Positions 38,480 through 59,836 of a DNA stretch of 64,000 bases are shown here, in pieces. The stretch comes from a virus. The DNA is taken from the IMG/VR virus record IMGVR_UViG_3300043419_000448, positions 1 to 64,000 of that record, one strand, 5' to 3'. A model generated the notes under the pieces. The model was not told where the DNA came from and ran no database searches. It worked only from the letters and a program-made list of their open reading frames with translations. Both the position numbers and the translations under genes were made by a program. Within the stretch, counting starts at the first letter, position 1, and the number at the start of each line of letters is the position of its first letter.

Positions 38480-39139
38480 CTAGTACCTATTCTTTTCATA
38501 GTGATCTTTTTCTTTTATAAAGCCAACTACGACATATCTTATTGGTCCGTCTTGTACATGTCTTACTCCATGTTCGTGCTTTTCATCCCCTGGGAAAAAT
38601 AGCATGTCTCCTGGTTTTGGCTTCAATGATATATCAAGGTTTGGGAAAAATAATTCTCCTCCTTCATACTCATCATTTATATAAACTATTGTCGCATATC
38701 TTATTGAAGGGTCTGTATGCTGATCTGTGTGCGCTTTTAATTCAACCCCTGGCTGCATTCTTTGAATTGTTGCCAATCCGCTAAGGATTAGAGATGGGTC
38801 TGAATTATTTACCATGCTCTGAAGTCGTTCATAGAATACATGCTGCTCTTTATGATGCTGAATATTTAAATTTTTATCTACCCAGTTTTGAGTAATTTCA
38901 AACTTGCCTTCAGCAACAAGGTTATCAACATCTTCTCTTCCAAATTTTTGCAGGCAAAACTTTTTTAAGTTACTCATATATTCTACTTCCCAGTCAGCCT
39001 GAGATGCATTTAATATTACCCCAAAAACAAAGTCTAAATCTTCTTTTGTTAGAAAATCTTTAACCCAAAGTATCTCGTTTGTGATTTCTTCAAATACAAA
39101 GTTTTTGTCTATAAGTTCTTTTTTAAATGCATCAAGCAT
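38480..39139 (-). CDS. 2-oxoglutarate/Fe(II) oxygenase, P4H-like (array copy 2)
   Basis: I prefer the ATG at 39139 (219 residues): GAGG lies seven nt upstream and the overlap with the preceding stop is only 8 nt. An earlier ATG at 39172 would overlap by 41 nt. The iron ligands are H137-x-D139 and H190, and R201 should hold 2-oxoglutarate. A second HxD (H141, D143) follows directly. The core VYINDEYEGGELFFP is typical. The long N-terminal helical region is specific to this copy and may recognise the substrate. Confidence 0.85.
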   Translation of the reverse strand: MLDAFKKELIDKNFVFEEITNEILWVKDFLTKEDLDFVFGVILNASQADWEVEYMSNLKKFCLQKFGREDVDNLVAEGKFEITQNWVDKNLNIQHHKEQHVFYERLQSMVNNSDPSLILSGLATIQRMQPGVELKAHTDQHTDPSIRYATIVYINDEYEGGELFFPNLDISLKPKPGDMLFFPGDEKHEHGVRHVQDGPIRYVVVGFIKEKDHYEKNRY

Positions 39140-39887
39140 CTGGAACCTCGTCCGACTTATATCTATTTCCATCTTTATCTATCTTCCAGCCCTGCTTAAG
39201 CAAATCTTGCCATTCGGCTCTTTCAATTTCTTGCTTTGCTCTGGTCTCTTTCATCTCTGCAGCCCATGCATCTCTCAATTCTTGCGAGTAAGCATCTTCT
39301 GGTCTGTCATCCCAAAACGATCCGATTGTATATCTAACACCGCTTGTGATCATAGAGACCTCATGCATGTTATTAAATCCCCCATCAAATACAGCAAGCA
39401 TTCCAACCTTTGGCTGTATCTCTAAGTCTTGGTCTGGAAATTTAAGAAGACCACCTTCAAAGTCATCATTCAAATACAAAAATCCTGCATATCTACTTCT
39501 TGTAAATGCTCCAGAGTTACCTTCTGCATCTGTATTATCTGAGTGCTTTCTTGCATATGCTCCTGGCTCCCACTTTTGTGTATGGTACCCAATTTGGTGT
39601 ACTGTCTCTGGGTCAAGATCGTGAACACTTGCAATTGCATTAATTATTCCCTGCTTAATTTCTGAAAAGATGTTAGGGCTTAGTTCTTCATTTATAACAT
39701 GCTCATCATTGTCTTCTGGCAAAACTGATGAGTATGACTCATAAAAAGATATTGGCATCCATGTAATAGTACCAACTTCTACATGCTTATCTAGGACCTT
39801 CACAAGTTTTGCAGATGTTTCTGCATCCAGGAAGTTCTCATAGACAACTATATCTTTAGTAAGTCGGTTCTTGTTTTCTAGGTTCAT
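39132..39887 (-). CDS. 2-oxoglutarate/Fe(II) oxygenase, P4H-like (array copy 3)
   Basis: This protein of 251 residues has iron ligands H115-x-D117 and H175 and the 2-oxoglutarate anchor R185 in SGVRY. The core reads FLYLNDDFEGGLLKFP. A charged C-terminal helix of about 55 residues (AAEMKETRAKQEIERAEW) extends beyond the catalytic domain and could contact a partner. It overlaps the previous oxygenase gene as ATGA and the next by 8 nt, so these are translated in series. All catalytic positions are intact. Confidence 0.87.
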   Translation of the reverse strand: MNLENKNRLTKDIVVYENFLDAETSAKLVKVLDKHVEVGTITWMPISFYESYSSVLPEDNDEHVINEELSPNIFSEIKQGIINAIASVHDLDPETVHQIGYHTQKWEPGAYARKHSDNTDAEGNSGAFTRSRYAGFLYLNDDFEGGLLKFPDQDLEIQPKVGMLAVFDGGFNNMHEVSMITSGVRYTIGSFWDDRPEDAYSQELRDAWAAEMKETRAKQEIERAEWQDLLKQGWKIDKDGNRYKSDEVPDA

Positions 39888-40756
39888 CTTAGTCTCACTC
39901 CATTTTTGATTTCGGCTCTTTGTGGATACTTGTCTCTAAATGCTTTTTCTAGTTCTGGCTGCATAGATGCCCAAACATCTTTTCCAAATTCTTTTTCTTT
40001 TTCATACCATTCGTCTGTTCCCTTTTGGTATTTTTGCCAGTACATTCTTGATAAAAACTTATTCTTATTATATGAAGGCATTACTCCATGAAGGTATGGC
40101 TTACCCTCTTCTGTTAAATAGTCTGGATGACCTGATGGGAAAACTAATAGATCTCCTGCTTCTGGCTTATACTTTACAAGTTTATCTCCCATAACAAAGT
40201 CAACTTCTCCACCCTCGTAATCATCATTGAAGTAGATTGTGCATGTTATTATAAATTTATATCCTGGAGCATCTGCTTGCTCTGGCATGTAGTCTGAGTG
40301 ATATCTCATTCCATGTTTTTCTGTTTCGCTACTTGTATGGTACTTTCCTATTGTTCCACCAGTCCATCTCCAGGTGTTAATTGTATTTCCATTATCGTCT
40401 AAGCATGTTTCATTCAGATCGACATCAACATTATATCTCTTAATATAGTCTGCAGTCACTAGGTGAAAGTTTTCCATCATTTCTAAAACAAAATTCTTTT
40501 GGTCTTCCTGAGTTTCTGTTTTTGCATCTACATCTTCTAGGATTCCATTTCTATATGACATAGAAAAATTTGGAATGATTGGGTTTAGGTAATCTCCAAA
40601 AATAGACCACTGCGTCCAAGGACTAAAAAGCCTGTCTTCTGTTTCAACAAGAGAATCTGTCAAAACTTTATAAGACTTTGAGACATCCTTAAACATATTC
40701 TTATACACAAGAATGTTAGGGTATATCTCAATTGCTTCTAGTGCTTTATCTGTCAT
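39884..40756 (-). CDS. 2-oxoglutarate/Fe(II) oxygenase, P4H-like (array copy 4)
   Basis: At 290 residues this is the longest of the array. The ligands are H153-x-D155 and H223, with K233 or R237 as the 2-oxoglutarate contact. The core reads TIYFNDDYEGGEVDF. The final motif departs from the SG-x-R/K-Y pattern of the others (SYNKNKFLSRMYW), so cofactor or substrate binding may differ. The C-terminus is basic and helical. The gene overlaps neighbours on both sides with ATGA junctions. Confidence 0.82.
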   Translation of the reverse strand: MTDKALEAIEIYPNILVYKNMFKDVSKSYKVLTDSLVETEDRLFSPWTQWSIFGDYLNPIIPNFSMSYRNGILEDVDAKTETQEDQKNFVLEMMENFHLVTADYIKRYNVDVDLNETCLDDNGNTINTWRWTGGTIGKYHTSSETEKHGMRYHSDYMPEQADAPGYKFIITCTIYFNDDYEGGEVDFVMGDKLVKYKPEAGDLLVFPSGHPDYLTEEGKPYLHGVMPSYNKNKFLSRMYWQKYQKGTDEWYEKEKEFGKDVWASMQPELEKAFRDKYPQRAEIKNGVRLR

Positions 40757-41439
40757 GGCTGTCTTTCCCCTGTATGCTTTGTTATTTCCCAGAAGAATGG
40801 ACAGGTATATCTTACACCGCTCTTAATTTCAGTTACTCCATGGATATAGTTTTTATCCCCTGGGAAAAAATACGCTGCACCCTTCTTAGGCTTAAACTGT
40901 ACCCCCTGTAGAGGGAAATACAACTCTCCACCCTCGTAGTCATCATTCAAATAGAATAAACTAGACAAGTCATAGTTTGGAAAATCATTTGGAGTTCCAG
41001 CATCTGGACCTTCATGAAGTTCTTTGTCTGCATGAGGCTTTTGAAATTGTCCTGGAAGCCACTTAACAATAGTAGTTCCAGTTGGAATAACCTCTACCTT
41101 GTAGAACTCTTCTACAATTGGCTTTAGTCTTTGAAAAAGCCCTGCAACAATTGGAGATATCTGAGGATCGTTTTTATCTAAGGTTGGTTGAGTTGCAACT
41201 CGATCCTTCCAGTAGTCTGAGTCATAAGTAACAGTTCCATTTTCATTTACATGACTTTCAGTTACATCCCAGACTGTTAAAGACTTTGCAGCCTTTTCTA
41301 AGAAATCTATTTCTTCTTGTGTCATAAAGTTCTCTAGTTCAACAATCATATCCTTGCCATCTCCAAACCAGCCAGATGGTGTTATAGACGGTGTTCTTTT
41401 TACTACTGTGTACGAATCTTTGTTTTGTTCCATGCTCAT
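40753..41439 (-). CDS. 2-oxoglutarate/Fe(II) oxygenase, P4H-like (array copy 5)
   Basis: This protein of 228 residues carries H136-x-D138, H200 and R210 in SGVRY, with core FYLNDDYEGGELYFP. It is among the closest to canonical prolyl 4-hydroxylase catalytic domains. Translation could start at either of two Met codons (residue 1 or 3). It overlaps the stop of the DUF6065-like gene by 4 nt. The N-terminus (RTPSITPSGWFGDGKDM) is specific to this copy. Confidence 0.87.
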   Translation of the reverse strand: MSMEQNKDSYTVVKRTPSITPSGWFGDGKDMIVELENFMTQEEIDFLEKAAKSLTVWDVTESHVNENGTVTYDSDYWKDRVATQPTLDKNDPQISPIVAGLFQRLKPIVEEFYKVEVIPTGTTIVKWLPGQFQKPHADKELHEGPDAGTPNDFPNYDLSSLFYLNDDYEGGELYFPLQGVQFKPKKGAAYFFPGDKNYIHGVTEIKSGVRYTCPFFWEITKHTGERQP

Positions 41440-42152
41440 AGTATATCACCATTAAGATTATTCTTTACTGAAAGTTTTAGGGCCTTTACTTCATGGCTTC
41501 CCAAAGACTCCTGCTTTTCATTGACTGCATTTCTATACCAGTCTGTCCAGTTACCAGATGCATTTATCACTTGTGCAGCCTCCCCATACGCTATGTTTGC
41601 CTGTTCTCTTTGTCTACCAGGATCTTTGTACTCAACAATGTTTATCTCTGTATTGTTTAAACTTGTTAGAGATATTGGAAGGATTGTGGCAATTGGTGTT
41701 CCAGCCTTTATAACAACTCTTTTATTCGGGGCCTTTGCTCTAATTGCTAGAGGAAGAGGATTATCGTAAAAAGAGGTGCTTATTAAAGATGACATAGTCT
41801 CAAACTCATCACTAAAATAGTTTACTGGTGTAAACGTAAATATGCTAACATCCTGATCTGTTCTAAATACAAGTCCAGTATTTAAACTAATAGAAGATTG
41901 CCCTCTACCAGAGTAAGAGCCTTCTGGACTAAAAATTGTAACATGATCCTGTGTTTGATCATTTATTCCATCCCAAAGAAACTCTATATCTTCTGTACAT
42001 GAGAGACTGTACCCAACTACGTTTGCCTGTGTGACTGGGAAGCATCGGTAGGCATGGTTCTCTGCTGTAGCATCCATCCAATCTCTTTTAATTGACATTG
42101 GAGCAATTTCAAAGATGCTGCCTGGAGCCTTTTCTACTGATATATTGTACAT
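41436..42152 (-). CDS. DUF6065-like protein within the oxygenase array
   Basis: This protein of 238 residues has no iron-binding HxD. Its N-terminal part (SIKRDWMDATAENHAYRCFP, then QANVVGYSLSC) matches, from memory, the DUF6065 pattern found in bacteria and phages next to 2-oxoglutarate oxygenases. A later stretch VVIKAGTPIATILPI is shared with the protein at 43558-44328 (LKAGTPFAQVFPF). A ribosome site GAGAGGG supports the start. Function is unknown; conserved association suggests a partner or substrate-presenting role. Confidence 0.65.
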   Translation of the reverse strand: MYNISVEKAPGSIFEIAPMSIKRDWMDATAENHAYRCFPVTQANVVGYSLSCTEDIEFLWDGINDQTQDHVTIFSPEGSYSGRGQSSISLNTGLVFRTDQDVSIFTFTPVNYFSDEFETMSSLISTSFYDNPLPLAIRAKAPNKRVVIKAGTPIATILPISLTSLNNTEINIVEYKDPGRQREQANIAYGEAAQVINASGNWTDWYRNAVNEKQESLGSHEVKALKLSVKNNLNGDIL

Positions 42153-42158
42153 TAAGGG

Positions 42159-42830
42159 TTATCCCTCTCGATACATTTCTGGAGTGTGAAACTTCTTATT
42201 ATAATCAAGCATAGTTACAATAGAATACTTGGTTCCTGAATGAACAGGCATAGCCTGATGAGGATACATGAAGTTTGATGGGAATATAAACAGATCTCCA
42301 GCCTCTGGCTTAACCTTTAGATTCTGAAGTCTAAAGTATAGTTCTCCACCTTCATAGTCGTCATTAACATATGCTACCAAAGAAACAGTACAGTTATAGG
42401 AGAATCCGTGGTCATGGTGCTCCATAAAGTGTTGTCCTGGTCCGTACTTAATAAAGTTAAATGCTTCCCAATACTGTAGTTTATTTATGTTATGCATTTT
42501 TGCATAATCCTCAACTGCTGGCAACTTTGCATCATAGATATCCTGCCATAGTGCCTGTAGATTTTGAGAAACCTCACTAGTATCATTTTCAATATCTGTT
42601 TTCTTAAACTTAAAGTCTACGCAATCTCTATAGTCTGGCATTAATTGCTGATATCCAACATATGCTGGATGCCAGTGATAGGGGATGCCTTCTGGGGACA
42701 AAGAGCCGTACTCAGCAACAGATCCAATGTTGCTTTCGAGTCTATTAATTACATCAAACTCTTTCTTGATAACTCCCTTGTAGCAAAAAATTCCATTACC
42801 TAGATCTTGTTTTTCTGTCCATGTTTCCAT
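42159..42830 (-). CDS. 2-oxoglutarate/Fe(II) oxygenase, P4H-like (array copy 6)
   Basis: This protein of 223 residues has H138-x-D140, H191 and K201 (SGTKYS), with core YVNDDYEGGELYF. It belongs with copies 7 and 10 in a closer subgroup that shares YRDCVDFKFKK-like segments, a WEAFNF-like line and a final K rather than R. Such similarity points to recent duplication. TAGGAGCA precedes the start, which overlaps the previous stop as TAATG. Confidence 0.87.
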   Translation of the reverse strand: METWTEKQDLGNGIFCYKGVIKKEFDVINRLESNIGSVAEYGSLSPEGIPYHWHPAYVGYQQLMPDYRDCVDFKFKKTDIENDTSEVSQNLQALWQDIYDAKLPAVEDYAKMHNINKLQYWEAFNFIKYGPGQHFMEHHDHGFSYNCTVSLVAYVNDDYEGGELYFRLQNLKVKPEAGDLFIFPSNFMYPHQAMPVHSGTKYSIVTMLDYNKKFHTPEMYREG

Positions 42831-43558
42831 TACATGCTCCTAACTTGTTGGTGACCTAATTCATTAATGTCTGTCATAATTACAACCGAATACTTTGTTC
42901 CTGACTTCATTGGCAAAGATGCATGCTCATAGATGTAGTTAGATGGGAAAACAGCAATGTCTCCTACTCGTGGCTTATAGACTAGGTTATCTAGTCTTGG
43001 GAACTTTATCTCCCCGCCTTCGTAATCATCGTTTATGTATATGACTGCTGATACCGTGCAATTGTATGCTGGACCATGGTCTGCATGAATATTAAAGTGT
43101 GTACCTTCCCCATCATATTTTACAAAGTTAAAGGCCTCATAATAAACAACATTAATGCCCCAATATGTAGCATAGTCGTCAATGCAGACCTTGAGTTTTT
43201 GATAAATTTCTTCATGAAGATCTAAGAGTTCTGAGTTATCTTTGTCTCTTGGACCTAGATTTTCTTGCTTGTACTTAAAGTCTACACAGTGTCTGGCTTT
43301 TTTAATTGTCTCAGTTGAGTTGGTTACTTTGGCTTCTGCCCAAGTATACTTCTTATCACCAGACAAATTTGATTCAAGAGTATTGATGTATCTGTTTGCA
43401 TCTTCTTGTGAGAATGTGTTGTGATAAACATGAAGCCCTAAGCCAAGATTCTCGGCAACAAACCCATTAGTTAATTCTTTTGGTGCAACTCTATTTGATG
43501 CAGTTTCTGATCTATCTTTTGTAAACCAAGGATTTGCATTTTCATCATATACTGTCAT
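42830..43558 (-). CDS. 2-oxoglutarate/Fe(II) oxygenase, P4H-like (array copy 7)
   Basis: This protein of 242 residues has H158-x-D160, H212 and K222, with core YINDDYEGGEIKFP. Segments such as HCVDFKYKQ and YYEAFNFVKY link it to copies 6 and 10. It carries an N-terminal extension of about 30 residues (NPWFTKDRSETASNRV). The start overlaps the preceding stop as TAATGA, so it is coupled to the DUF6065-like gene upstream. Confidence 0.87.
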   Translation of the reverse strand: MTVYDENANPWFTKDRSETASNRVAPKELTNGFVAENLGLGLHVYHNTFSQEDANRYINTLESNLSGDKKYTWAEAKVTNSTETIKKARHCVDFKYKQENLGPRDKDNSELLDLHEEIYQKLKVCIDDYATYWGINVVYYEAFNFVKYDGEGTHFNIHADHGPAYNCTVSAVIYINDDYEGGEIKFPRLDNLVYKPRVGDIAVFPSNYIYEHASLPMKSGTKYSVVIMTDINELGHQQVRSM

Positions 43559-44328
43559 TATTCATACTTCCTTCTGCTCCATACTGTATTTTTATAAACT
43601 CCGCCATCTGGGACTCTATAAATATCAGAATTCTTTCTATTGTTTGTCAACATGTTTATAGGATTCTCTATCACTATCTCTGATGACCAGTCTTCTCTTT
43701 TAAATGGAAAAACCTGTGCAAAAGGTGTTCCAGCCTTTAGAGTTCCTGACCAACCTTCTGCTATGAAGAATGGCAGAGATCCTGGATAATGAACCTTGTC
43801 TGTGTCAATTATACCAGAGGTGTTTAGGAATGGTAAGTCAAATCTATTAAATGGCTGAGTTATTAGTACGCTATATCCTGGTGGAGTTTTGATTGCCCAA
43901 TCATAAAACCAAGCAAAATGATTCTGATAGTATCCTCTTGGATGCTCAAACTGTTGCATTGGAGGTCTTGGTGTACAAAAATCTTGATACTGCTTATCTT
44001 GTATATTTACCGTCAAGGTTTTTTCATCTTTTTGTATAAACTCTATATCGCATGGAAGATTAAGTGAATAGCCTGTTCCTAAAATATCAAAGATTGCTGG
44101 ACATGCTTTCCATGTTGGCATCTTTCCATAGTCATCCGTAGTGCCTTCTTTTGGACGAGCACAAATCTCTCTTGGTCCTGCTTTATAGTATTCACCATTA
44201 GGAAGTTTTGCAAATCTATCTGCTTCTCTATACCAGTCTGGTATATGCTTAATTATTGGAGTTGGAACAGATGTGCTGTCCTTTTTAAGCCAAACTCTGT
44301 TGGACATAAAAGAAATTATATTATTCAT
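43558..44328 (-). CDS. Second DUF6065-like protein within the oxygenase array
   Basis: This protein of 256 residues is Pro- and aromatic-rich (HIPDWYREADRF, YDWAIKTPPGYSVLITQPFN) and lacks the oxygenase motifs. It shares with the 41436-42152 protein the pattern of a YSV or VSI strand, P-x-N, I-x-T and a terminal KAGTP-x-A segment, so I take the two as distant paralogues. The ribosome site is AAGGGG, and an excellent promoter precedes it (44347-44375). Function is unknown; it may be a companion of the oxygenases. Confidence 0.6.
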   Translation of the reverse strand: MNNIISFMSNRVWLKKDSTSVPTPIIKHIPDWYREADRFAKLPNGEYYKAGPREICARPKEGTTDDYGKMPTWKACPAIFDILGTGYSLNLPCDIEFIQKDEKTLTVNIQDKQYQDFCTPRPPMQQFEHPRGYYQNHFAWFYDWAIKTPPGYSVLITQPFNRFDLPFLNTSGIIDTDKVHYPGSLPFFIAEGWSGTLKAGTPFAQVFPFKREDWSSEIVIENPINMLTNNRKNSDIYRVPDGGVYKNTVWSRRKYE

Positions 44329-44346
44329 TTTTTCCCCTTTTAATAG

Positions 44347-44375
44347 AGTATATCATAGAAATCTTATCCTGTCAA
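44347..44375 (-). promoter_or_regulatory. Consensus sigma-70-type promoter inside the oxygenase array
   Basis: The minus strand reads TTGACA, a 17-nt spacer and TATACT. It lies in the 49-nt gap before the gene ending at 44328 and just after an oxygenase stop. This is the best -35/-10 pair I found in the window and should drive the downstream seven oxygenase genes and perhaps the FkbM and SDR genes. Confidence 0.75.
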
Positions 44376-44377
44376 TC

Positions 44378-45160
44378 TTATATATCAATAACTGGTTTAT
44401 GGTTATCGTCAACTACTAATCTATTTACCTTTTTATCAAAAGCAATCTTGCTAGACTTTGAAATGTTATTGGACCAGAAGGTAACATGAGTGTATCTTGT
44501 TCCATCAGTAACCTCTTTGATGCCGTGCATATTATCAATAGTTCCACTAAAGATTAGCATTGTTCCTTTTTTAGGCCGTATCTCAAAGCCATTGTGTTGT
44601 GGAAAGTATAGTTCTCCACCAGCGTAGTCATCATTTAGGTAGATGATAGAAGTAAACGCCTTATTGGTAAATAGTCTTTTATATTTCTCTATATTACGCT
44701 CTTCAAAAAAATATTTACATTCTTCTGGCACGGAGTCAAGATCTACAGAAGAAAGATCAAAATCTGGATCAATATGGTCTACATGAGGTTCCTGAAGATT
44801 TCCTTTTCTCCACCTTACTATCTCCCAAAGTTCGCTATGCAGGTCAAAGTCTGGATTAAAAAAATCAATGACTTCTTCATGCATTTCATACTGTAATGGA
44901 AGGACAACATCAAAAAAATCTTTTCTGCGTTCCATGCCCTGAAGGTACAGTTCATTAATATCAATCCTTCTATTGTTCCACTGCTTGCCTGCAGAAATAT
45001 ATTCTTCTTCATCTTTAAATATATAACTTTTTATAGAGTTATTAAAGTTGTCCCAAAGATCTTCTTTTTGAGCGTACTCAATAAGATAATCGCATGTTGC
45101 ATCATCTATAAAGTTTTCAACAACCCTAATCTTTGGAGAATCTAAATCTTTTTTATACAT
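44378..45160 (-). CDS. 2-oxoglutarate/Fe(II) oxygenase, P4H-like (array copy 8)
   Basis: This protein of 260 residues has H126-x-D128, H212 and R222 (TDGTRY), with core IYLNDDYAGGELYFP. It is unusual for a 40-residue insertion between the HxD and the core (DPDFDLSSVDLDSVPEECKY, then a basic helix), which may form a substrate cleft. The start overlaps the preceding gene by 8 nt and has GGTGAG as ribosome site. The C-terminal tail is basic and then acidic. Confidence 0.87.
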   Translation of the reverse strand: MYKKDLDSPKIRVVENFIDDATCDYLIEYAQKEDLWDNFNNSIKSYIFKDEEEYISAGKQWNNRRIDINELYLQGMERRKDFFDVVLPLQYEMHEEVIDFFNPDFDLHSELWEIVRWRKGNLQEPHVDHIDPDFDLSSVDLDSVPEECKYFFEERNIEKYKRLFTNKAFTSIIYLNDDYAGGELYFPQHNGFEIRPKKGTMLIFSGTIDNMHGIKEVTDGTRYTHVTFWSNNISKSSKIAFDKKVNRLVVDDNHKPVIDI

Positions 45161-45644
45161 ATCTCACCATATACTTTCCTATAAACCAGTTCTTATATTT
45201 CATATCTCTGTACTCTGTCCAGTATGTTGCTATAGCGTAGTTGCCAATAACTAATTCTGATATTTCTTGATCTCCCGAATTGTTTGTCAATACATATGTC
45301 CTACATTCATTCTTTAAGGGAGTGATAGTTTGGCATATTTGATCTTCGACAATAATGTCTGTATTAAATAGATTTCTATCTATTTTAATAAGTTGAATCT
45401 TATACGGAAAAACCTTGTTTGTATTATGAAACATATCAATAATCTGACCTTGTAAGATCACTCCAGTTTCTTCTACAACCCTGCCAACAAACTTCTGTAT
45501 TCTGTAGATTTGATCTGCACTTATAGCGTCTTCTGACCAATTTGGCTCATCATTAAATTTATTGAGTGGCAAAACCTTATCTAGTTTTTCATTAATATCT
45601 ACTAGGTCTGTTACGTTTGCTGGAGTAAAAATTGACCTAATCAC
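45153..45644 (-). CDS. Unidentified protein within the oxygenase array
   Basis: I start it at a GTG at 45644 that overlaps the previous stop as GTGA, giving 163 residues. A longer reading to 45779 is possible but would overlap the upstream oxygenase by 139 nt with an unnatural Arg-rich start. The protein is mixed alpha/beta (VEETGVILQGQIIDMF, YKIQLIKIDRNLF, ATYWTEYRDMKYKNWF). It has no HxD motif and no clear similarity to the DUF6065-like pair. Its function is unknown; linkage suggests a part in the same modification system. Confidence 0.6.
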   Translation of the reverse strand: MIRSIFTPANVTDLVDINEKLDKVLPLNKFNDEPNWSEDAISADQIYRIQKFVGRVVEETGVILQGQIIDMFHNTNKVFPYKIQLIKIDRNLFNTDIIVEDQICQTITPLKNECRTYVLTNNSGDQEISELVIGNYAIATYWTEYRDMKYKNWFIGKYMVRYV

Positions 45645-46186
45645 TTTAGCCAACTTGCTATAGAATACCTGTTCCCAGCCGTTACAGGCTTTACGCTGTG
45701 CGAATAGACATAGGATGATGGGAACACAACCATGTCTCCTTCTTCTGGCTTTAACTCTATGCCAAACTGAGGAAAACATAATTCTCCCCCAGAATAGTTA
45801 TCATTTAAATAATAAACAGTTGAAACTCTTCTGAAGTTTCCACCTCCATCATCCATATGATTCTCAAACTTTCCCCCTACCTCATACTTTAAAATTTTGT
45901 ATGGGTTGTGAGACTTTAAAGATATCCCGAATAATGACATATAGTCTTTTTCTACTGGGTCAAATGTTGCTCTGAAAATATCTGTAAACTCATTATCATT
46001 ATTAGTAGAGTATGGTACATCTATAGATAGAGTTATTCTAGAGTCATAGTCTGTCTTAAACTGATCATTGCTAATAATACTTTCTTTTGTTGCCCCGCTA
46101 AAGTCCAAATCTAAAATTCTGTCTTTGCATTCAAGTTTGATATTTTTATATAATCTTATGCCTAAAGCCAATTCTTTACTTTCCAT
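45641..46186 (-). CDS. 2-oxoglutarate/Fe(II) oxygenase, P4H-like (array copy 9)
   Basis: I choose the ATG at 46186 (181 residues), which has AGAGG upstream and overlaps the preceding gene by 11 nt. The ligands are H110-x-D112, H163 and R173 (AGNRYS), with core YYLNDNYSGGELCFP. It is the shortest of the array, with a reduced N-terminal region, but catalytic positions are intact. Next comes the unidentified protein started by a GTGA overlap. Confidence 0.85.
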   Translation of the reverse strand: MESKELALGIRLYKNIKLECKDRILDLDFSGATKESIISNDQFKTDYDSRITLSIDVPYSTNNDNEFTDIFRATFDPVEKDYMSLFGISLKSHNPYKILKYEVGGKFENHMDDGGGNFRRVSTVYYLNDNYSGGELCFPQFGIELKPEEGDMVVFPSSYVYSHSVKPVTAGNRYSIASWLK

Positions 46187-46844
46187 AATAAAACCTCTGT
46201 GTATGAAACTTATCACTATAGTCTAACATTGTAACAACTGAATACTTTATGCCTGTTGTCACTGGCAGCGCTCTATGCATAAACATAAAGTTTGATGGGA
46301 AAATTACTAGATCCCCTGCATCAGGCTTTATAGTTACATCTTGTAACTTAAAAAATATTTCTCCGCCTTCATAGTCATCGTTTAGGTATCCAACCAATGA
46401 GACTACAGACTTATAAGAAGCACCATCGTCTGCATGCATCTGAAAATGATTTCCTGGATAGTACTTTACTAAGTTTATAGACTCCCAATATTCTAAAGGT
46501 TCCATTGGGTACATTTTGCAATAATCTTGTACTGCAACATTCATAGTGTCAAACAGATACTGCCAAGAGTCTTTTACTATTTCAGACTTTTCATCTGTTC
46601 CAACTATTGTAGACTTTTTAAACTTAAAATCTAAACAGTCTCTATACTCAGGAACCTTTTGTCTATTGCCTACCATTGCAGGACTCCACTTATAATTACT
46701 ACCCTCAGATAAAACGCCCTCTAGTTTTTCTGCAATGTCATTACCTGACTTTATGATATTTTTATATAGAACTAGTCCAGGTGCTAGGACAACCTTGTCC
46801 AGATATGAGGCAGGGAGTATACCGTCGTTATTTTCGACTGACAT
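46176..46844 (-). CDS. 2-oxoglutarate/Fe(II) oxygenase, P4H-like (array copy 10)
   Basis: This protein of 222 residues has H137-x-D139, H190 and K200, with core GYLNDDYEGGEIFF. It is a close relative of copy 6: both have YRDC(V/L)DFKFKK, a WE line and the C-terminus DYxxKFHT. It is the first oxygenase read after the Hint fibre gene, with AGGGAG as ribosome site and a TGGTATACT box within the end of the fibre gene. This places the putative modifier directly behind its likely substrate. Confidence 0.88.
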   Translation of the reverse strand: MSVENNDGILPASYLDKVVLAPGLVLYKNIIKSGNDIAEKLEGVLSEGSNYKWSPAMVGNRQKVPEYRDCLDFKFKKSTIVGTDEKSEIVKDSWQYLFDTMNVAVQDYCKMYPMEPLEYWESINLVKYYPGNHFQMHADDGASYKSVVSLVGYLNDDYEGGEIFFKLQDVTIKPDAGDLVIFPSNFMFMHRALPVTTGIKYSVVTMLDYSDKFHTQRFYYGK

Positions 46845-46866: not shown

Positions 46867-48180
46867 TTACTTGTTGTGTATTAGTATACCACTTACGAAG
46901 AACCAGTCGTACGGTTCGCAAGATAACTGGTAAACATTTACTACTTCGTCTGTGAAGTATTCGATGCTTGTTACTGGAACTTCAACCTTTTGACCAGTTG
47001 AGTCTACCACTATCAGGCTTTCTCCTACTTCGATGTAGTATGCTTCTTTAATCTTGTACTGATTGTTGACTGTCTTCACGAATACTGGCTGTGTGAAGGT
47101 GATTCTGATATCTGAGTTTCCATTGAAACAGATGATATCTGACTCTTCGACAACTTCCATTGCTGTGATTGTTGTCTCAACCAATGCTCCAGGAGTTAGA
47201 CTGTTTGCAGACCATGAGTACTTCTGCCAGTCTGGTTCTGAGGCATCTAATTCAGCAAGTGGTGCTGACCAGATTACATCGCCAACCTGAAGATTCTTTA
47301 CAGGAATCTGTCCATTAGGTGTATCGATCAATGTGTTCTCTTCAACACATGGTGGTCCAAACCAAGGAATGATTGGGGCGAACGATGGGAAGTAAGGTGG
47401 GAAGAACGGGAAGAATGGGAAGTAAGGGAAGAATGGTGGGAAGAACGGCCCAAACGCTGGTGGGAAGAATGGTGGGAAGAACGGGAAGTAAGGCGGGAAG
47501 AATGGTGGAAAGAATGGGAAGTAAGGGAAGAATGGTGGGAAGAATGGTGGGAAGAATGGTGGGAAGAACGGTGGGAAGAACGGTGGTGTAGTTGTAACTG
47601 ATGAAGATGCTGCAGAAGTTGCAGAATTTCCATTAGCATTTGTCGCATACACTGTATATGTCTGAGATGTTCCTCCTTCTTGAGCAACGCTTGTAGATGT
47701 TGCATTAAGAGTTGCACCCTTGCCATCTGATGATGCCCAGGTGTATGAAGTAATTGCAGATCCACCATTTGCTGGAGCAGACCAAGACAAGTTATCTTGA
47801 TTTACCTGTGTTGATACTGTTGGTGCTGATGGTGTTTCTGGCACTGTTGTAATTGTTACTGCAGAAGAAGCAGAAGACGCTACTGATGTTCCAGCAGCAT
47901 TTGATGCTCTTACTGTAAATGTTGTAGATGTGTCTGATGGAAGTCCAGTAATAACAATTGGAGAAGATGCTCCAGTTGCTGTCTGACCCGTACTTGCTGT
48001 TACTGTATAGGATGTAGCAGCAGGTGATAGTGCGGGTAGAGAGAACGAAACATTTGCTGCTCCATCGTTATAACCACGTCCAGTTCCTACGTTTGTTGCT
48101 GTAACACCTGTTGGTGCTAATGGCTCCAAGAAGTCATTTGACGCTTGGGACTTTCTACCTGATTTCTTACCTGCTGCCAT
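46867..48180 (-). CDS. Fibre with Fn3-like domains, Pro/Phe tract and C-terminal Hint domain
   Basis: This protein has 437 residues. Residues about 20-198 form two Fn3-like modules (APTGVTATNVGTGRGYND, SYTVTASTG; then PSAPTVSTQVNQDNLSW). Residues 199-277 are almost only Phe and Pro with a few Tyr (FFPPFFPP repeats). From C278 to the end, 160 residues form an intein-like Hint domain: CVEENTLIDTPNGQIPV with LQVGDVI, TFTQP where most Hint domains have TxxH, and the terminal HN before a last Lys. Hint domains can cleave at the Cys or pass the upstream part to a nucleophile. It precedes ten hydroxylase-like genes. Confidence 0.8.
   Translation of the reverse strand: MAAGKKSGRKSQASNDFLEPLAPTGVTATNVGTGRGYNDGAANVSFSLPALSPAATSYTVTASTGQTATGASSPIVITGLPSDTSTTFTVRASNAAGTSVASSASSAVTITTVPETPSAPTVSTQVNQDNLSWSAPANGGSAITSYTWASSDGKGATLNATSTSVAQEGGTSQTYTVYATNANGNSATSAASSSVTTTPPFFPPFFPPFFPPFFPPFFPYFPFFPPFFPPYFPFFPPFFPPAFGPFFPPFFPYFPFFPFFPPYFPSFAPIIPWFGPPCVEENTLIDTPNGQIPVKNLQVGDVIWSAPLAELDASEPDWQKYSWSANSLTPGALVETTITAMEVVEESDIICFNGNSDIRITFTQPVFVKTVNNQYKIKEAYYIEVGESLIVVDSTGQKVEVPVTSIEYFTDEVVNVYQLSCEPYDWFFVSGILIHNK
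46883..46891 (-). promoter_or_regulatory. TGGTATACT box before the oxygenase array
   Basis: TGGTATACT lies inside the last codons of the Hint fibre gene, 38 nt before the ATG at 46844. It would give the array a promoter of its own. The matching place in the second Hint gene has lost the box (TGGTATTTT). Confidence 0.45.
47336..47427. repeat. 92-nt near-identical block, copy 1
   Basis: This block matches 57140-57231 at 91 of 92 positions (one C/T difference at 47407). It encodes the end of the Pro/Phe tract and the first residues of the Hint domain. Flanking Hint sequence is clearly more diverged, so this is a local island of identity. Confidence 0.85.
47350..47586. repeat. 12-nt minisatellite encoding FFPP repeats
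   Basis: The plus strand repeats GGTGGGAAGAAT or close variants, coding on the minus strand for Phe-Phe-Pro-Pro units with Tyr or Gly substitutions, 79 residues in all. Such a tandem array may change copy number by slippage or recombination. Confidence 0.8.
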
Positions 48181-54957: not shown

Positions 54958-54963
54958 TATATC

Positions 54964-55007
54964 AAAAGGCACTCATTAGGTTTACAAAAATCTTTTGGGT
55001 GCCTTTT
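54964..55007. terminator. Bidirectional terminator between lysis and glycosyltransferase genes
   Basis: A 9-bp stem AAAAGGCAC/GTGCCTTTT, with a smaller CAAAA/TTTTG stem inside, lies just after the lysis stop and just after the convergent glycosyltransferase stop. A/T runs on both sides suit termination in both directions. Confidence 0.75.
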
Positions 55008-55010
55008 GCT

Positions 55011-55922
55011 TTAGCAATTTTCTATTAGTCTACCAGATAAGAAATTAACACCAGCAAACTCTTCATACTCTGACAAGGATCTTTCTGTTCCTAGATATCC
55101 GTCCCCTATCATTTCTTCTAGCAATATTCTGTAGACTAGACTCTGAGATTTAGCATTCATCTCATCAAACTCTTTTGGAAAATCATGCCAAAATATCTTT
55201 CTTCTATTAATGCTAGGCTTCTCATGATTATAGTAAAGGTGATAGAGATATTGCTTATCTGGAATCACTAGATCATACCCGTGAGTGTATGCTCTTACTG
55301 CCATAATTATCTCTTCTCCCCAAAATGCCATGTCTTTGTTTGGTGGCATAAAAGGTCCTACCGTAAAAAGTGAGCCAGCAGATATAGACCTTGTGAATAT
55401 ACTGCCTTCACTTGGCATTGCTGTCTGTGATGGAATTCTACGTAACTTAAAATCTTCTGGGTTTTGGTGAAAACTTATGATAGTCCTATAGTTGGGGTCA
55501 AATAAGTCTGTCTCTACGTCTGTAAATGTTTCGTCTGTATACCAGTAATTTGCTGGGTACATTGTTAATAGAGGTTTTTCAATTCCATTACTTTGATAAT
55601 TTAAAACTGAATTAATAGCAATTTCATCCCAATTCTCTACAAACCTTGAATGGGAGTCGCACTGAAAATAATAATCCTCATTATCATAAAACTGATGGGC
55701 AAGATATCTTCCAATTCCAACACCTACATTTTCTGGAGCCTTGCTTGTTATATATTTTATATTTGGAAGTTCTGGCAAAGATATTTCAGACTCTTCTATA
55801 TAGGATACATGAATTCCAAAATTTAACTTATGTTTGCCAGACGCTTGTTTTATTGCGTTTAAAATTGTTGGAGAAAGTTCTGGATCTCTATATGATGATA
55901 TCTGTATAAAGATGCTTGCCAT
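55011..55922 (-). CDS. GlcNAc-transferase of the Skp1-hydroxyproline (GT60) type
   Basis: This protein has 303 residues. The start IFIQISSYRDPELSPTI and the line from GVGIGRYLAH to FQCDSHSRFVENWDE are characteristic of the GlcNAc family (Pfam GlcNAc, CAZy GT60). D89-S90-H91 is the metal/UDP-sugar motif, and FWGEEI follows near residue 215. The founding member adds GlcNAc to hydroxyproline of Skp1 in Dictyostelium after a prolyl 4-hydroxylase. Here it is the last gene after a P4H-like enzyme and a Thr/Cys-rich fibre. The donor and acceptor are inferred. Confidence 0.8.
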   Translation of the reverse strand: MASIFIQISSYRDPELSPTILNAIKQASGKHKLNFGIHVSYIEESEISLPELPNIKYITSKAPENVGVGIGRYLAHQFYDNEDYYFQCDSHSRFVENWDEIAINSVLNYQSNGIEKPLLTMYPANYWYTDETFTDVETDLFDPNYRTIISFHQNPEDFKLRRIPSQTAMPSEGSIFTRSISAGSLFTVGPFMPPNKDMAFWGEEIIMAVRAYTHGYDLVIPDKQYLYHLYYNHEKPSINRRKIFWHDFPKEFDEMNAKSQSLVYRILLEEMIGDGYLGTERSLSEYEEFAGVNFLSGRLIENC

Positions 55923-55923
55923 A

Positions 55924-56169
55924 CTACCATTTACCTATTGGGCATTCTGCCTTTTCTATTTTTGTTTTTATAGCCATAAAGCAGCCACATTTTTTACACT
56001 GGTTTGTTAACTTAATTAGTTCTGGACAGGCTTGACAAATTGAAAACCTTTTATCTGATATAGACTCATCAACCCACTCAGTTTTTGGATTAATAATATC
56101 CATTGGGCTTACGGCAGACTTCTTATTATTTTCTATTATTTCTTTTATTTTATCTATTCTGCTTGACAT
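55924..56169 (-). CDS. Small Cys-rich zinc protein (DUF6171-like)
   Basis: The ATG at 56169 (81 residues) follows a TATAAT by six nt; a GTG at 56184 would overlap the upstream gene. The second half is a metal-binding knuckle: CQACPELIKLTNQCKKCGCF, followed by MAIKTKI and a final CPIGKW. I recall this layout from DUF6171 proteins common in phages. The six cysteines could bind one or two zinc ions. It stands between the hydroxylase and the glycosyltransferase genes, one nt from the latter, so it may be an adaptor of that pair. Confidence 0.7.
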   Translation of the reverse strand: MSSRIDKIKEIIENNKKSAVSPMDIINPKTEWVDESISDKRFSICQACPELIKLTNQCKKCGCFMAIKTKIEKAECPIGKW

Positions 56170-56175
56170 AATTAT

Positions 56176-56183
56176 ATTATACA
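56176..56183 (-). promoter_or_regulatory. TATAAT box before the zinc protein
   Basis: TGTATAAT ends six nt before the ATG at 56169. It overlaps the end of the hydroxylase gene and may support separate expression of the zinc protein and glycosyltransferase. Confidence 0.45.
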
Positions 56184-56665
56184 CTAACCCCTGGGGTTTT
56201 GGCTAAATCTGTCTTGCTAGTAATAAAGGATGTTAAAGTGTATCTATTTCCAGAAATTACATCTAAGACCTTATGAACCCTATCTCCTGGGTGGCAGATA
56301 AGCATCCCAACCTCTGGCTTAATCTTTGTGTTAGAGTCTGTGTACAGAAGTTCTCCTCCTTCAAAATTATCATTTAAATATATAACAACTCCATAATGGG
56401 TATTTGGTGAGCCAGAGTTATCTGAGTGCTCTTCCCAAAAAGAATCCTTGTCTGTTCTATGTATCATCCTGATCATTTGAACATATAGATTTTTATCAAA
56501 AAGTTCAGAAACTCTTTTATTTATATCTATCATTATCTTATGATTTTTTGATGGAAGTATATAGATTCCAGTATCTGCATGTTGTGGTCTCCAAGAGTTA
56601 GAAACTTCTGCCTCTTCTAAAAGAATCTGGCACTCTTCTCTTGTTAAAAAGTTTTTAATAATCAC
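56177..56665 (-). CDS. Compact prolyl-4-hydroxylase-like 2-oxoglutarate/Fe(II) oxygenase
   Basis: This protein of 162 residues is the smallest of the twelve and close to a bare catalytic domain. H80-x-D82, H131 and R141 (ISGNRY) are intact, and the core is IYLNDNFEGGELLY. Its start is a GTG 5 nt after the stop of the Thr-rich Hint fibre, so it appears to be translated with that fibre. The zinc protein and the hydroxyproline-type GlcNAc-transferase follow. By analogy to Skp1 it would make the hydroxyproline acceptor, but this has not been shown here. Confidence 0.87.
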   Translation of the reverse strand: MIIKNFLTREECQILLEEAEVSNSWRPQHADTGIYILPSKNHKIMIDINKRVSELFDKNLYVQMIRMIHRTDKDSFWEEHSDNSGSPNTHYGVVIYLNDNFEGGELLYTDSNTKIKPEVGMLICHPGDRVHKVLDVISGNRYTLTSFITSKTDLAKTPGVSV

Positions 56666-56670
56666 TGTAA

Positions 56671-59217
56671 CTACTTATTGTGAATTAAAATACCACTTAC
56701 AAAGAACCAGTCATAAGGCTCACAAGACAACTGGTAAACAGTTACAACTTCATCAGTGAAGTGTTCAATGCTTGTAACAGGAACTTCAACCTTTTCGCCT
56801 TCTGAGTTGATAACAATTAGGCTATCTCCAACAGCAACATAGTATGCTTCCTTAATCTTGTATTCTCCTTCTGGAGTCTTAACAAACATTGGCTGAGTAA
56901 ATGTTAGTCTAATGTCTGCATTACCGTTAAAGCAAATGATATCTGACTCTTCAACTGAATCAAGAGCAGTAATAGTTGTTTCAACTAAATCACCAGTTGT
57001 AAGACTTGATGATGTCCAAGCATACTTTTGCCAGTCTGGTTCTGAAGGATCGAGTTCTGTAATTGGTGCTGACCAAATTACGTCACCTACCTGAAGGTTC
57101 TTAACTGGGATTTGACCGTTAGGTGTGTCAACTAGAGTATTCTCTTCAACACATGGTGGTCCAAACCAAGGAATGATTGGGGCGAACGATGGGAAGTAAG
57201 GTGGGAAGAATGGGAAGAATGGGAAGTAAGGTGGCGCTGCGGTAGTTGCTTCTGTTGTAGTAACAGGTGCAGCCGTAGTTGTTGCAGCAGTAGTTGTTGC
57301 AGCAGTAGTTGTTGCAGGTGCAGCGGTAGTAGTTACTTCTGGGCATGTGTAAGACTCTGCTCCAGTACAAGGGTTTACATAGATAGGGACGCTTCTTCCA
57401 CAAGAAGATCTGTATTCGTTATAAGAAAATACTGGGGTACAATTTGATGCTGCTGTGGTTGTAGTTGTAGCAGCAGTTGTGGCAGCAGTAGTTGCTGCTG
57501 TTGTGGCAGCAGTTGTTGCTCCACCGCAACATGACCATCCATTAGGAACTGAGTATTGTGAAGAGTTACCTAGGTAAGTAAGTCCAAGTTCTTGACAAGT
57601 AATTGATACAGGGTTGGTAGACTGTCCTGGACATGCTGCTGTTGTAGAAGCAGTAGTTGAAGCGGTTGTTGCTGCTGTAGTTGATGCTGTTGTGGCAGCG
57701 GTAGTCGCTGCTGTAGTTGCAGCGGTAGTTACAGGAGCACATGCTGACGGAATTCCTAGAATTGCAATAATCTCTGAAGAAGTCAAAGATCCATTTGCGG
57801 TTATTCCTTCATTGCTGCTTAATCCAGAACCTGTTGGTGCTGTTCCATATCCTCCAGAATAGTTACCGCTAAATCCATTACATGTTACATAAATGTTATA
57901 ACTTATTGGGGCAGCAGTTGTTCCTGTTGTAGCAGTAGTTGCTCCGCCACAGCACTGCCATGTTGAAGGAACTGAGTATGTAGAAGAATTACCAAGATAC
58001 TCTAGCCCAAGTTCAGCACATGTTATTGATGCAGGGTTAGTAGCCTGACCTGGACATGAAGCAAGTGTTGCTGATGTTGTTCCAGAAGTTGTTGCCTCTG
58101 TTGTTCCAGAAGTTGTTCCACCTGTAGTTGGGGCAGTTGTTGAACAGTTAGGTGCTGTAGGATACGATGTTCCGTAGGCTACAGTAACGTTTGTTTCACC
58201 AGTTTGTGATTGTGTACAGAATGATGATAAAGCATCTCTAGCATTTGCTTCTGAAGAAACACTGCTTCCACGAATTATAGTTCCATCACAACATCCAATT
58301 GCATACCAACCACTAACTGGTGCTTGAGTTGCTTGGGTTGTTGCTTCAGTTGTAGCCTGTGTTGCTTGTGTTGTTCCCTGAGTTGTTGCTTGGGTTGTAG
58401 CCTGTGTCGTAGCAGCAGTTGTTGCTGCTGTTGTAGCAGCGGTAGTCGCAGCAGTTGTTGCTTCTGTTGTACCTGATGAAGAACCTTCATAGATATCTCC
58501 ATAAGCGATCCAATTATTTGTACCAACCTTCATTAAGGTGACTTGTCCATATTGAGAGTCAATAAAAAGTTGTGAGTTCTTGCTATTAACAGTTACTCCA
58601 GACGCTGGTTCAAAAGTTGTAACTCCTTCGCCAACCTCAAGCAAGTGATATTTATATCCAACTGGAATTGCTACTGAAGCATTTGATGGAACAGTTAAAG
58701 TCATTGTTGTTGGTGTTGAAAGAAGAACTGTTTTGTTTGCATCTTCAACAGATAAAGTAAAACTAGTAGATTTTGTAGTAACAGAACTGTCAATTTCAAA
58801 CTGTTCTGAAACTGTATTCCAAACAATTCCAAACCCTGCAAGAGATGACTGATCTACTACAGCGGTATCTACTCTATTATCTACATAAGATTTTGTGGCA
58901 AGAAGTGAAGTGTCTGCAATACCGTGAATGTTTGTAGTATCTGATTGGTGAGCAGCAAGTGCTGCTGTAGATGCAGTTTCGTGTGCAGCAAGTGCTGCTG
59001 TTGCAGCAGTGTCTGCATCAACTAAATTTTGAAGGTACTTTGCAATTGATGGGCTTACAAGATTAGCCTTGTTTGTGTTTGAGCCATCATACTCGTATGA
59101 TCCATAGTGATAAAGTCTAAGCGCTGCTTGAATATCTGCTGCATCTGATAAACCTGGCACTTTGGCATTGAAAAGTCCACTACCGTTGACGGTATTATCA
59201 ATATTTTCTGCTGCCAC
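56671..59217 (-). CDS. Modular fibre: Thr-rich linkers, Cys-rich modules, C-terminal Hint domain
   Basis: This protein of 848 residues starts at GTG with AGGGTGA upstream. Residues 1-240 resemble the repeat fibre (one DTTNIHGIADTSLLAT unit and the same beta domain). Then mucin-like TTAATT runs alternate with Cys-rich modules; two of these are paralogous, CPGQ-x-TNP...CCGGATT (coding about 57948-58063 and 57520-57635). A short FPFFPPYF tract leads to C689 and a Hint domain of 160 residues nearly the same as the other fibre, ending HNK. The Thr-rich runs look made for O-glycosylation, and the operon supplies a hydroxylase and a GlcNAc-transferase. Confidence 0.82.
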   Translation of the reverse strand: MAAENIDNTVNGSGLFNAKVPGLSDAADIQAALRLYHYGSYEYDGSNTNKANLVSPSIAKYLQNLVDADTAATAALAAHETASTAALAAHQSDTTNIHGIADTSLLATKSYVDNRVDTAVVDQSSLAGFGIVWNTVSEQFEIDSSVTTKSTSFTLSVEDANKTVLLSTPTTMTLTVPSNASVAIPVGYKYHLLEVGEGVTTFEPASGVTVNSKNSQLFIDSQYGQVTLMKVGTNNWIAYGDIYEGSSSGTTEATTAATTAATTAATTAATTQATTQATTQGTTQATQATTEATTQATQAPVSGWYAIGCCDGTIIRGSSVSSEANARDALSSFCTQSQTGETNVTVAYGTSYPTAPNCSTTAPTTGGTTSGTTEATTSGTTSATLASCPGQATNPASITCAELGLEYLGNSSTYSVPSTWQCCGGATTATTGTTAAPISYNIYVTCNGFSGNYSGGYGTAPTGSGLSSNEGITANGSLTSSEIIAILGIPSACAPVTTAATTAATTAATTASTTAATTASTTASTTAACPGQSTNPVSITCQELGLTYLGNSSQYSVPNGWSCCGGATTAATTAATTAATTAATTTTTAASNCTPVFSYNEYRSSCGRSVPIYVNPCTGAESYTCPEVTTTAAPATTTAATTTAATTTAAPVTTTEATTAAPPYFPFFPFFPPYFPSFAPIIPWFGPPCVEENTLVDTPNGQIPVKNLQVGDVIWSAPITELDPSEPDWQKYAWTSSSLTTGDLVETTITALDSVEESDIICFNGNADIRLTFTQPMFVKTPEGEYKIKEAYYVAVGDSLIVINSEGEKVEVPVTSIEHFTDEVVTVYQLSCEPYDWFFVSGILIHNK
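57140..57231. repeat. 92-nt near-identical block, copy 2
   Basis: This is the partner of 47336-47427, with a single difference at 57211. It spans the Hint junction including synonymous positions, while sequence beyond its left end differs at roughly a quarter of positions by eye. Confidence 0.85.
58316..58478. repeat. Thr-rich tandem repeats of the modular fibre
   Basis: Units of about 12 nt (GTAGTTGCTGCT-like on the plus strand) code for TTAA, TTQA and TTEA on the minus strand. Further runs lie at about 57233-57340, 57447-57520, 57633-57732 and 58070-58140. They form flexible linkers between Cys-rich modules. Confidence 0.75.
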
Positions 59218-59235: not shown

Positions 59236-59244
59236 ATTATACCA
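59236..59244 (-). promoter_or_regulatory. TGGTATAAT promoter of the modification locus
   Basis: TGGTATAAT lies 18 nt before the GTG at 59217, with a short leader containing AGGGTGA. It could drive the fibre, hydroxylase, zinc protein and glycosyltransferase as one message. Confidence 0.55.
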
Positions 59245-59836
59245 CTGTAATAAAAAGATGAATCATTTTTTCACCAGACATAGGTGCCCAGGTTCCATCT
59301 TTATATTCTACTCCTTGTATTTCAAGTGGTAGGGCCAAAAAGCCCTGTGTAGTGATTAAGTCTTTAACTATTAGGTTTGTAGCAAGTGGTCCAGATAGGG
59401 ATGAAGAAGATATCGAGTATTGTATATTAAATCTTGAAGAACTTACAGTTCCTTCTTCTATGTCATATATATCTGTTACATTAATTGGAGGTATTGTAAT
59501 TTTTCCATTTACTGGAGTAAGAGGACCCTTTTTTTCTGAATAAAAATTTGTTTTTAAACTAACGATTGGCGTCCATTGAGGATTTCCACTTGGAGTTGCT
59601 ACATATTGAAAAACTGTCTTGTATGTTGGAGAACTTGGACTGTAATCAATAGCAATATCTAAAACTTGCTCTTCTTGAGTAATTGAGTTTGCAACAGTTG
59701 TATTTCTTGGATCTCCTTGAACACCAATAATTAAACTTCCACGATCTCCCGTTGGTCCAAAATCTAAATCAAGACTAATCGTTTCTGGTCCACCAAAAAC
59801 TGTAAGGTCGTCATTAGATAATAGGATGTCTGCCAA
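59237..59836 (-). CDS. Virion protein, unknown family
   Basis: This protein of 199 residues probably starts at a TTG with GGAG about nine nt upstream. It is beta-rich with a Ser-rich part (SISSSSLSGPLATNL) and a C-terminal strand EKMIHLFITVV. GPTGDRG near residue 30 is a short Gly-rich turn. It lies 2 nt after the preceding small virion gene. No motif identifies its role. Confidence 0.6.
   Translation of the reverse strand: MADILLSNDDLTVFGGPETISLDLDFGPTGDRGSLIIGVQGDPRNTTVANSITQEEQVLDIAIDYSPSSPTYKTVFQYVATPSGNPQWTPIVSLKTNFYSEKKGPLTPVNGKITIPPINVTDIYDIEEGTVSSSRFNIQYSISSSSLSGPLATNLIVKDLITTQGFLALPLEIQGVEYKDGTWAPMSGEKMIHLFITVV

Follow-up and report, generated by a model that had tools for sequence, protein, structure and literature searches.

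A 64,000-nucleotide stretch of viral DNA (hereafter the window; 64,000 of the 64,742 bases in the IMG/VR record IMGVR_UViG_3300043419_000448) carries a four-gene operon of a lake-type bacteriophage, which encodes a fibre protein with five threonine (Thr) tracts, a 2-oxoglutarate (2OG)-Fe(II) oxygenase, a small DUF6171 protein and a glycosyltransferase of family GT60. The reading that we hold, by a narrow balance, to be the probable one is that a single mucin-like fibre undergoes two separate modifications, with the GT60 enzyme acting on the Thr tracts and the oxygenase on a segment rich in proline and phenylalanine (the Pro/Phe segment), and is processed by its C-terminal intein-like (Hint) domain. 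What is observed comprises the gene order, the protein families, the catalytic motifs, the predicted fold of the transferase and the co-distribution of fibre and enzyme types. All four reading frames of the operon are open on the minus strand at the positions given below.

56671..59217, minus strand: fibre/virion protein, 848 residues (open reading frame; phrog_8780 minor tail protein, E=3.7e-12; orthologs in IMG/VR)
58315..58488, minus strand: Thr tract 1, residues 244-301, 24 Thr, 1 Pro
58054..58170, minus strand: Thr tract 2, residues 350-388, 15 Thr
57622..57747, minus strand: Thr tract 3, residues 491-532, 16 Thr
57421..57534, minus strand: Thr tract 4, residues 562-599, 14 Thr
57223..57354, minus strand: Thr tract 5, residues 622-665, 18 Thr
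57154..57234, minus strand: Pro/aromatic segment PPYFPFFPFFPPYFPSFAPIIPWFGPP, 27 residues, immediately N-terminal to the Hint Cys
56671..57153, minus strand: Hint (intein-like) C-terminal domain, from Cys689 to the terminal HNK (weak profile matches)
56177..56665, minus strand: 2OG-Fe(II) oxygenase, prolyl-hydroxylase-like, 162 residues (PF13640, E=2.1e-10)
55924..56184, minus strand: DUF6171 small Cys4 zinc-finger-like protein, 86 residues (PF19668, E=1.2e-7; phrog_13558, E=1e-16)
55011..55922, minus strand: predicted GT60-type polypeptide N-acetylhexosamine (HexNAc) transferase, 303 residues (PF11397, E=5.1e-37)
54963..55008: terminator-like perfect 10-bp hairpin 3' of the transferase gene, read directly in the sequence

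The genes are closely packed. The fibre and oxygenase genes are 5 nucleotides apart, and a single nucleotide separates the DUF6171 gene from the transferase gene. The oxygenase and DUF6171 genes overlap by 8 nucleotides if the latter begins at its GTG codon, or leave a gap of 7 nucleotides if the ATG at 56169 is used; the ATG is the likely true start, since relatives such as that in locus L106 favour it. The same gene order was found again in independent viral contigs of IMG/VR. A preliminary description of this DNA had named the operon and its four products, and profile searches bear these names out: the N-terminus of the fibre matches tail and fibre PHROGs, the P4H-like enzyme has all its ligand residues, the zinc protein matches DUF6171, and the transferase scores 128.6 bits (cut-off 21) with PF11397 (Pfam GlcNAc; CAZy GT60). 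That description missed the five Thr tracts, the Pro/Phe segment, the Hint-like domain and eleven further 2OG oxygenase genes in the window.

A Mucin-Like Fibre and a GT60 Transferase

The fibre starts with a fibre N-terminal domain, continues with the Thr tracts and Cys-rich modules, and ends with the Pro/Phe segment and the Hint-like domain. Together the five tracts hold 87 Thr and only 12 Pro in 221 residues, and fibres of this kind are made of Thr-rich, Pro-poor repeats of the form (TTAA/TTTTAAP)n. Tandem Thr-rich tracts with Cys modules between them are a trait of mucins. An origin of the tracts in nucleotide-level repeats was ruled out because all four Thr codons are in use. The fibre is probably sugar-coated by the phage's own transferase.

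Family, motif and predicted fold mark the transferase as a genuine enzyme of the GT60 type. Its DxH motif reads D89-S-H91, and D89, H91, E203, E204 and H228 are invariant over 53 relatives; DxH instead of DxD is specific to GT27 and GT60 (PMC7185993). A sequence search against the PDB found no relative, and an AlphaFold model was therefore made. With 53 diverse natural relatives as input it reached a pLDDT (predicted local distance difference test) of 92.6 and a pTM (predicted template modelling score) of 0.91; an earlier model from 19 close sequences (pLDDT 52) was discarded. The predicted structure has a GT-A fold close to that of GT27: each of the 46 best PDB matches is a polypeptide N-acetylgalactosamine (GalNAc) transferase of this family, with GalNAc-T2 in first place (E=4e-9, TM score ~0.6).

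Characterized GT60 enzymes use different acceptors. Gnt1 of Toxoplasma and Dictyostelium requires hydroxyproline (PMC6939170), and TcOGNT1 of Trypanosoma cruzi forms N-acetylglucosamine (GlcNAc)-alpha-Thr on mucins (PMC9472816); a T. cruzi GT60 enzyme was assayed with the acceptor peptide KPPTTTTTTTTKPP (PMC3769586). Action on the plain Thr of mucins, as in T. cruzi, is a possibility that the preliminary description left unconsidered. In cultured phages only distant GT60 relatives were found, in Stenotrophomonas phages and without Thr-rich neighbours, and bacterial relatives mostly lack Thr/Pro-rich neighbour genes. One locus (L028:7131-8915) encodes a fusion of GT60 and DUF7164 domains.

Co-Distribution of Fibre and Enzyme Types

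The comparison across related viruses is anchored on the gene upstream of the fibre, UP.

59237..59836, minus strand: conserved virion gene UP, upstream of the fibre and adjoining it in all islands examined

An island is the variable region between UP and a downstream cement-like gene, and it holds the fibre and the enzyme cassette. Relatives were retrieved from IMG/VR by three independent queries, with GT60, with the Hint domain and with the gene upstream of the fibre. The UP-anchored (blind) sample, drawn without regard to fibre repeat type or enzymes, comprises 39 distinct islands, and the pooled set 49. Cassette genes were clustered with two-way coverage, a simpler clustering having merged DUF6171 and GT60 via a fused protein. 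Fibres were sorted by repeat class into Thr-tract (TT) and Pro-Thr alternating (PT) types because a maximum-Thr threshold, tried as a classifier, separated the two poorly.

The pooled islands contain 15 Thr-tract fibres, 33 PT fibres and one that is neither. A close (window-type) GT60 is present in 15/15 Thr-tract islands, and in the PT islands GT60 is absent, or divergent in 11 (E 1e-17 to 1e-99). In the blind sample any GT60 accompanies the fibre in 6/6 Thr-tract islands versus 11/33 (p=0.0038), and for close GT60 the association with Thr tracts gives p=3e-7. The window-type 2OG oxygenase goes with the Hint domain, with 7/7 Hint islands versus 0/42 others in the pooled set (p=1e-8) and 3/3 versus 0/36 in the blind one (p=1e-4). 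On the tree of the anchor protein, Thr tracts and close GT60 change jointly in 5/5 independent pairs, and Hint and 2OG in 4/4. The DUF6171 gene is present in 48/49 islands. High Thr content is confined to the fibre in the sampled loci (27/809 open reading frames, 26 with a fibre-domain match and one in the same position). Enzyme type thus tracks fibre repeat type, which argues for the phage's own fibre as the target of these enzymes, as the preliminary description had supposed.

Its further proposal, a two-step path in which the oxygenase prepares hydroxyproline for the GT60 enzyme, fares worse. The presence of any 2OG gene is not associated with that of any GT60 (Fisher p=0.55 in the pooled 49 islands, p=1 in the blind 39), and on the anchor-protein tree the two change in the same direction 2.5 times and in opposite directions 3.0 times. 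A coupling of prolyl hydroxylase and GT60, tested by co-inheritance only, was found in neither set. In 9/15 Thr-tract islands GT60 lies beside the fibre and the island has no 2OG gene. Conversely, L038 has the window-type 2OG enzyme without GT60, and L040 combines it with a Hint domain and a PT-type fibre, again without GT60. The 52-kb record L023, possibly incomplete, encodes a Thr-tract fibre and GT60, and no PF13640 gene was found anywhere in it; the 118-kb record L017 has eight such genes.

The 2OG Oxygenase, the Pro/Phe Segment and the Hint Domain

The HxD...H...R motif of the fibre-linked oxygenase is complete, with H80, D82 and H131 as iron ligands and R141 for 2OG, and its PDB neighbours are PKHD-type and prolyl 4-hydroxylase (P4H) enzymes at E ~1e-3 only. 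The PHROG labels 'DNA endonuclease (V)' and 'ferrochelatase' for 2OG proteins were dropped in favour of PF13640, and in phrog_274, phrog_2297 and phrog_3531 these names are probably misannotations of 2OG oxygenases.

Matches of the Hint domain are weak but consistent, including Pfam Hint_2 (E=2e-4, below the cut-off) and, in a profile search against the PDB, intein chain 6rpq (E=0.0025) and the bacterial intein-like (BIL) domain 2lwy (E=0.026). All copies have Cys1 (Cys689 in the window) and the C-terminal His-Asn. In every Hint protein found, the Pro/Phe segment, ending in IPWFGPPC, precedes the Hint Cys, and a 2OG gene begins 5-6 or 22 nucleotides past each Hint gene wherever the next gene is present in the locus. 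The window itself holds a second such arrangement.

46867..48180, minus strand: second Hint-bearing virion protein, which shares the IIPWFGPPC-Hint C-terminus of the fibre and has a long (PPFF)n tract
37748..46844, minus strand: array that includes ten genes for 2OG-Fe(II) oxygenases and lies directly downstream of the gene above

The second Hint protein has fn3/PKD-like domains and a (PPFF)n tract of ~70 residues; it carries no Thr tract, and no GT60 gene lies nearby. The simplest reading of these sequences is that the fibre-linked oxygenase would hydroxylate the Pro/Phe segment or control the Hint domain, and would not prepare acceptors for GT60.

The window encodes 12 2OG-Fe(II) oxygenases in total: the fibre-linked one, the ten of the array and one at 63190-63882, unusual in that a CDGSH-like iron-sulfur segment (PF09360, below the cut-off) is fused to its N-terminus. 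Two DUF6065-type genes (41436-42152 and 43558-44328) are interspersed in the array. The arrangement of a Hint protein followed by a 2OG array recurs in many IMG/VR contigs (L042, L045-L055).

The Cassette Locus and Its Genomic Context

The fibre island is a cassette locus in which enzyme sets and fibre repeat type change together. PT-type fibres are built from (PT)n, TPVAPTPVAP and TPPSPTPP repeats that resemble plant hydroxyproline-rich glycoproteins. In 32/33 of them another 2OG family (~203 residues) or a 190-residue family of unknown fold adjoins the fibre; sugar epimerases also occur in these loci, and some carry a divergent GT60. A further fibre type, (PPPIIAT)n, has several 2OG genes and GT60 alongside. 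In L152:3108-3578 and L147:2767-3261 fibres made purely of (PPPIIAT)n repeats stand ahead of DUF6171, several 2OG genes and GT60. Hydroxyproline glycosylation may therefore belong to sister loci that combine (PT)n or (PPPIIAT)n fibres with 2OG and GT60 genes, and the L152 and L147 loci are the best place to test it. A broader view, which we put forward tentatively as possible though doubtful, is that viruses of a widespread actinophage-type family use one interchangeable locus for two classes of eukaryote-like glycoprotein fibres. One would be mucin-type (Thr tracts and GT60); the other, hydroxyproline-rich class would combine (PT)n, TPVAP or PPPIIAT repeats with prolyl hydroxylases, glycosyltransferases and sugar epimerases. 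The window fibre would be mucin-type, its Pro/Phe end being hydroxylated and processed by the Hint domain.

In some GT60 loci the cassette also includes a radical SAM/SPASM enzyme, a GT2-like protein or an epimerase. In L016 (6997-8001), as in 23 other loci, the radical SAM/SPASM gene separates DUF6171 from GT60; the window lacks it. In the cultured cyanophages Synechococcus phage S-IOM18 (L209:7058-7934) and WH25-B (L207), DUF6171 stands downstream of the fibre. It is followed by a ~200-residue protein whose HND...H...R was read by eye as 2OG-like, with no match to the local 2OG profile; in WH25-B this protein is named 'DNA endonuclease V'.

Because the portal protein has 49% identity to that of Streptomyces phages of ~130 kb and related contigs extend to 113-119 kb, the window probably covers part of the genome of an actinophage-type virus. 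Neither the UP anchor protein nor the Hint domain is encoded by any cultured phage in the collection searched. Upstream of the fibre island lies a conserved collagen-like gene.

60278-61000: collagen-like fibre protein with GPP/GPQ repeats (Pfam Collagen), three genes upstream of the fibre

A Proposed Mechanism and Its Alternatives

According to the reading that we favour, the operon would make and modify a mucin-like tail-fibre glycoprotein; we infer both substrates, both activities, the donor sugar, the Hint processing and the role of DUF6171. GT60 would be a GT-A polypeptide HexNAc-transferase with a metal ion bound at its DxH motif and a uridine diphosphate (UDP)-HexNAc donor. It would place alpha-linked HexNAc on threonines of the five tracts, in parallel with its relative acting on T. 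cruzi mucins and with GT27 on animal mucins; putative acceptor peptides are TTAATTAATT and TTAATTAATTAA. Separately, the oxygenase would act on prolines of the Pro/Phe segment (PPYFPFF...IIPWFGPP) preceding the Hint-like domain, which would probably cleave the fibre at or near Cys689. The DUF6171 Cys4 protein probably assists in the modification, as it is found with every type of cassette.

Several points weigh against this reading. The loci are related, some were retrieved through the GT60 or Hint queries, and the blind subset is small, with only 6 Thr-tract and 3 Hint islands. The independent-pair tests include too few pairs for p<0.05, and some circularity attaches to the threshold for close GT60, whose profile was itself derived from such loci. 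GT60s of the divergent kind co-occur with (PT)n and (PPPIIAT)n fibres and 2OG genes. As GT60 holds both the hydroxyproline-requiring Gnt1 and the Thr-acting TcOGNT1, membership of the family is on its own insufficient to choose between a hydroxyproline-type and a Thr-type enzyme. Cleavage by the Hint domain is uncertain: in all copies block B reads TxxQ, with Gln for His (motif alignment by eye), and a single Lys and the stop codon follow the terminal HN, with no Cys, Ser or Thr there.

A path like that of Skp1, with hydroxylation of fibre prolines by the oxygenase and addition of GlcNAc to the hydroxyproline by GT60, would account for two enzyme genes close together in one operon. It also agrees with the requirement of Gnt1 and with the loci where Pro-rich repeats accompany GT60 and several 2OG genes (L152, L147, L082, L083, L116). 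We nevertheless regard it as unlikely for the window, given that GT60 and 2OG genes are distributed independently, that each occurs without the other, and that the tracts are so poor in Pro relative to Thr. Host polymers or DNA are frequent substrates of phage glycosyltransferases, and the GT60 relative in a Stenotrophomonas phage has no Thr-rich neighbour and belongs to a cluster of glycan type; the enzymes might thus serve host targets or host surface glycans (serotype change, superinfection exclusion) and adjoin the fibre by co-transcription only. That seems rather improbable in view of a predicted polypeptide-transferase fold and of enzymes that change along with the repeat type and the Hint domain.

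Other phage proteins could be the targets, such as the collagen-like fibre for the oxygenase, collagen being the classic P4H substrate and its gene so near, and another virion protein for GT60. The collagen-like gene, however, occurs in islands both with and without the window-type 2OG gene, which tracks the Hint domain perfectly, and Thr tracts are confined to the fibre among the sampled reading frames, so that we consider such targets quite improbable. Very improbable in our view is a regulatory role of the oxygenase, in which hydroxylation of the segment or of the Hint active site would control Hint cleavage or cross-linking and would not be a structural decoration. The perfect 2OG-Hint association and the invariant IPWFGPPC junction speak for such control; the incomplete Hint catalytic set, without the block-B His, and the long (PPFF)n tracts of the second Hint protein, which suggest bulk modification, speak against it.

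Comparison with Known Systems

If the fibre is modified as proposed, phages have evolved dedicated protein-glycosylation systems for their adhesins. This would raise the question of prokaryotic roots of GT60/GT27 mucin-type glycosylation, and it offers candidate substrates for many unexplained 2OG oxygenases of aquatic phages. Literature searches, confined to an open-access library, turned up no account of phage fibres that are mucin-like or carry glycosylated hydroxyproline. To our knowledge, hydroxyproline glycosylation, if confirmed in the sister loci, would have no precedent among viruses of bacteria.

Few cases of phage virion glycosylation are known so far. The glycosyltransferases of mycobacteriophage Che8 and its relatives belong, as far as known, to other families. 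As related in two citing papers, these are actinophage-encoded enzymes acting on virion proteins, but the modified sites are the C-termini of capsid and tail-tube proteins, and neither mucin-like tracts nor matched fibre-enzyme cassettes figure in these accounts (Freeman et al. 2023, cited in PMC11256854, PMC12619734). Since virion glycosylation is already known there, it is not new in itself; what the Thr-tract fibre and its GT60 add is an unusually testable assignment of the substrate.

The repeats of the sister fibres, (TP)n, TPVAPTP and TPPSPTPP, and the 2OG enzymes and sugar genes beside them resemble the situation of the plant hydroxyproline-rich glycoproteins (arabinogalactan proteins and extensins), whereas the window fibre is of another type and hydroxyproline in the sister fibres is hypothetical. 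Bacterial BIL/Hint domains share with the fibre C-terminus the Cys start, the HN end and weak profile matches to one intein and one BIL domain, but differ in the block-B Gln for His, the Lys after HN and the position at the end of a phage fibre. The Skp1 pathway of Dictyostelium and Toxoplasma (PhyA/P4HA and Gnt1) likewise pairs a 2OG prolyl hydroxylase with a GT60 enzyme, here in one phage gene neighbourhood; in the phages, however, the two genes are inherited independently, a Thr-rich acceptor is available and there is no Skp1-like target. The GT27 GalNAc-transferases (GalNAc-T2 and others) provide the best fold match, the DxH motif and mucin-type acceptors, although the phage enzyme has 11-15% identity to them, lacks a lectin domain and is placed by Pfam in GT60, not GT27. 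The T. cruzi system of TcOGNT (pp-alpha-GlcNAcT) and Thr-rich mucins differs in having a eukaryotic Golgi enzyme, while the phage transferase is encoded beside its presumed acceptor and has a predicted activity and donor. The two share a DxH-type polypeptide transferase of family GT60, Mn-dependent in T. cruzi, and an acceptor with pure Thr runs flanked by Pro, Ala or Lys.

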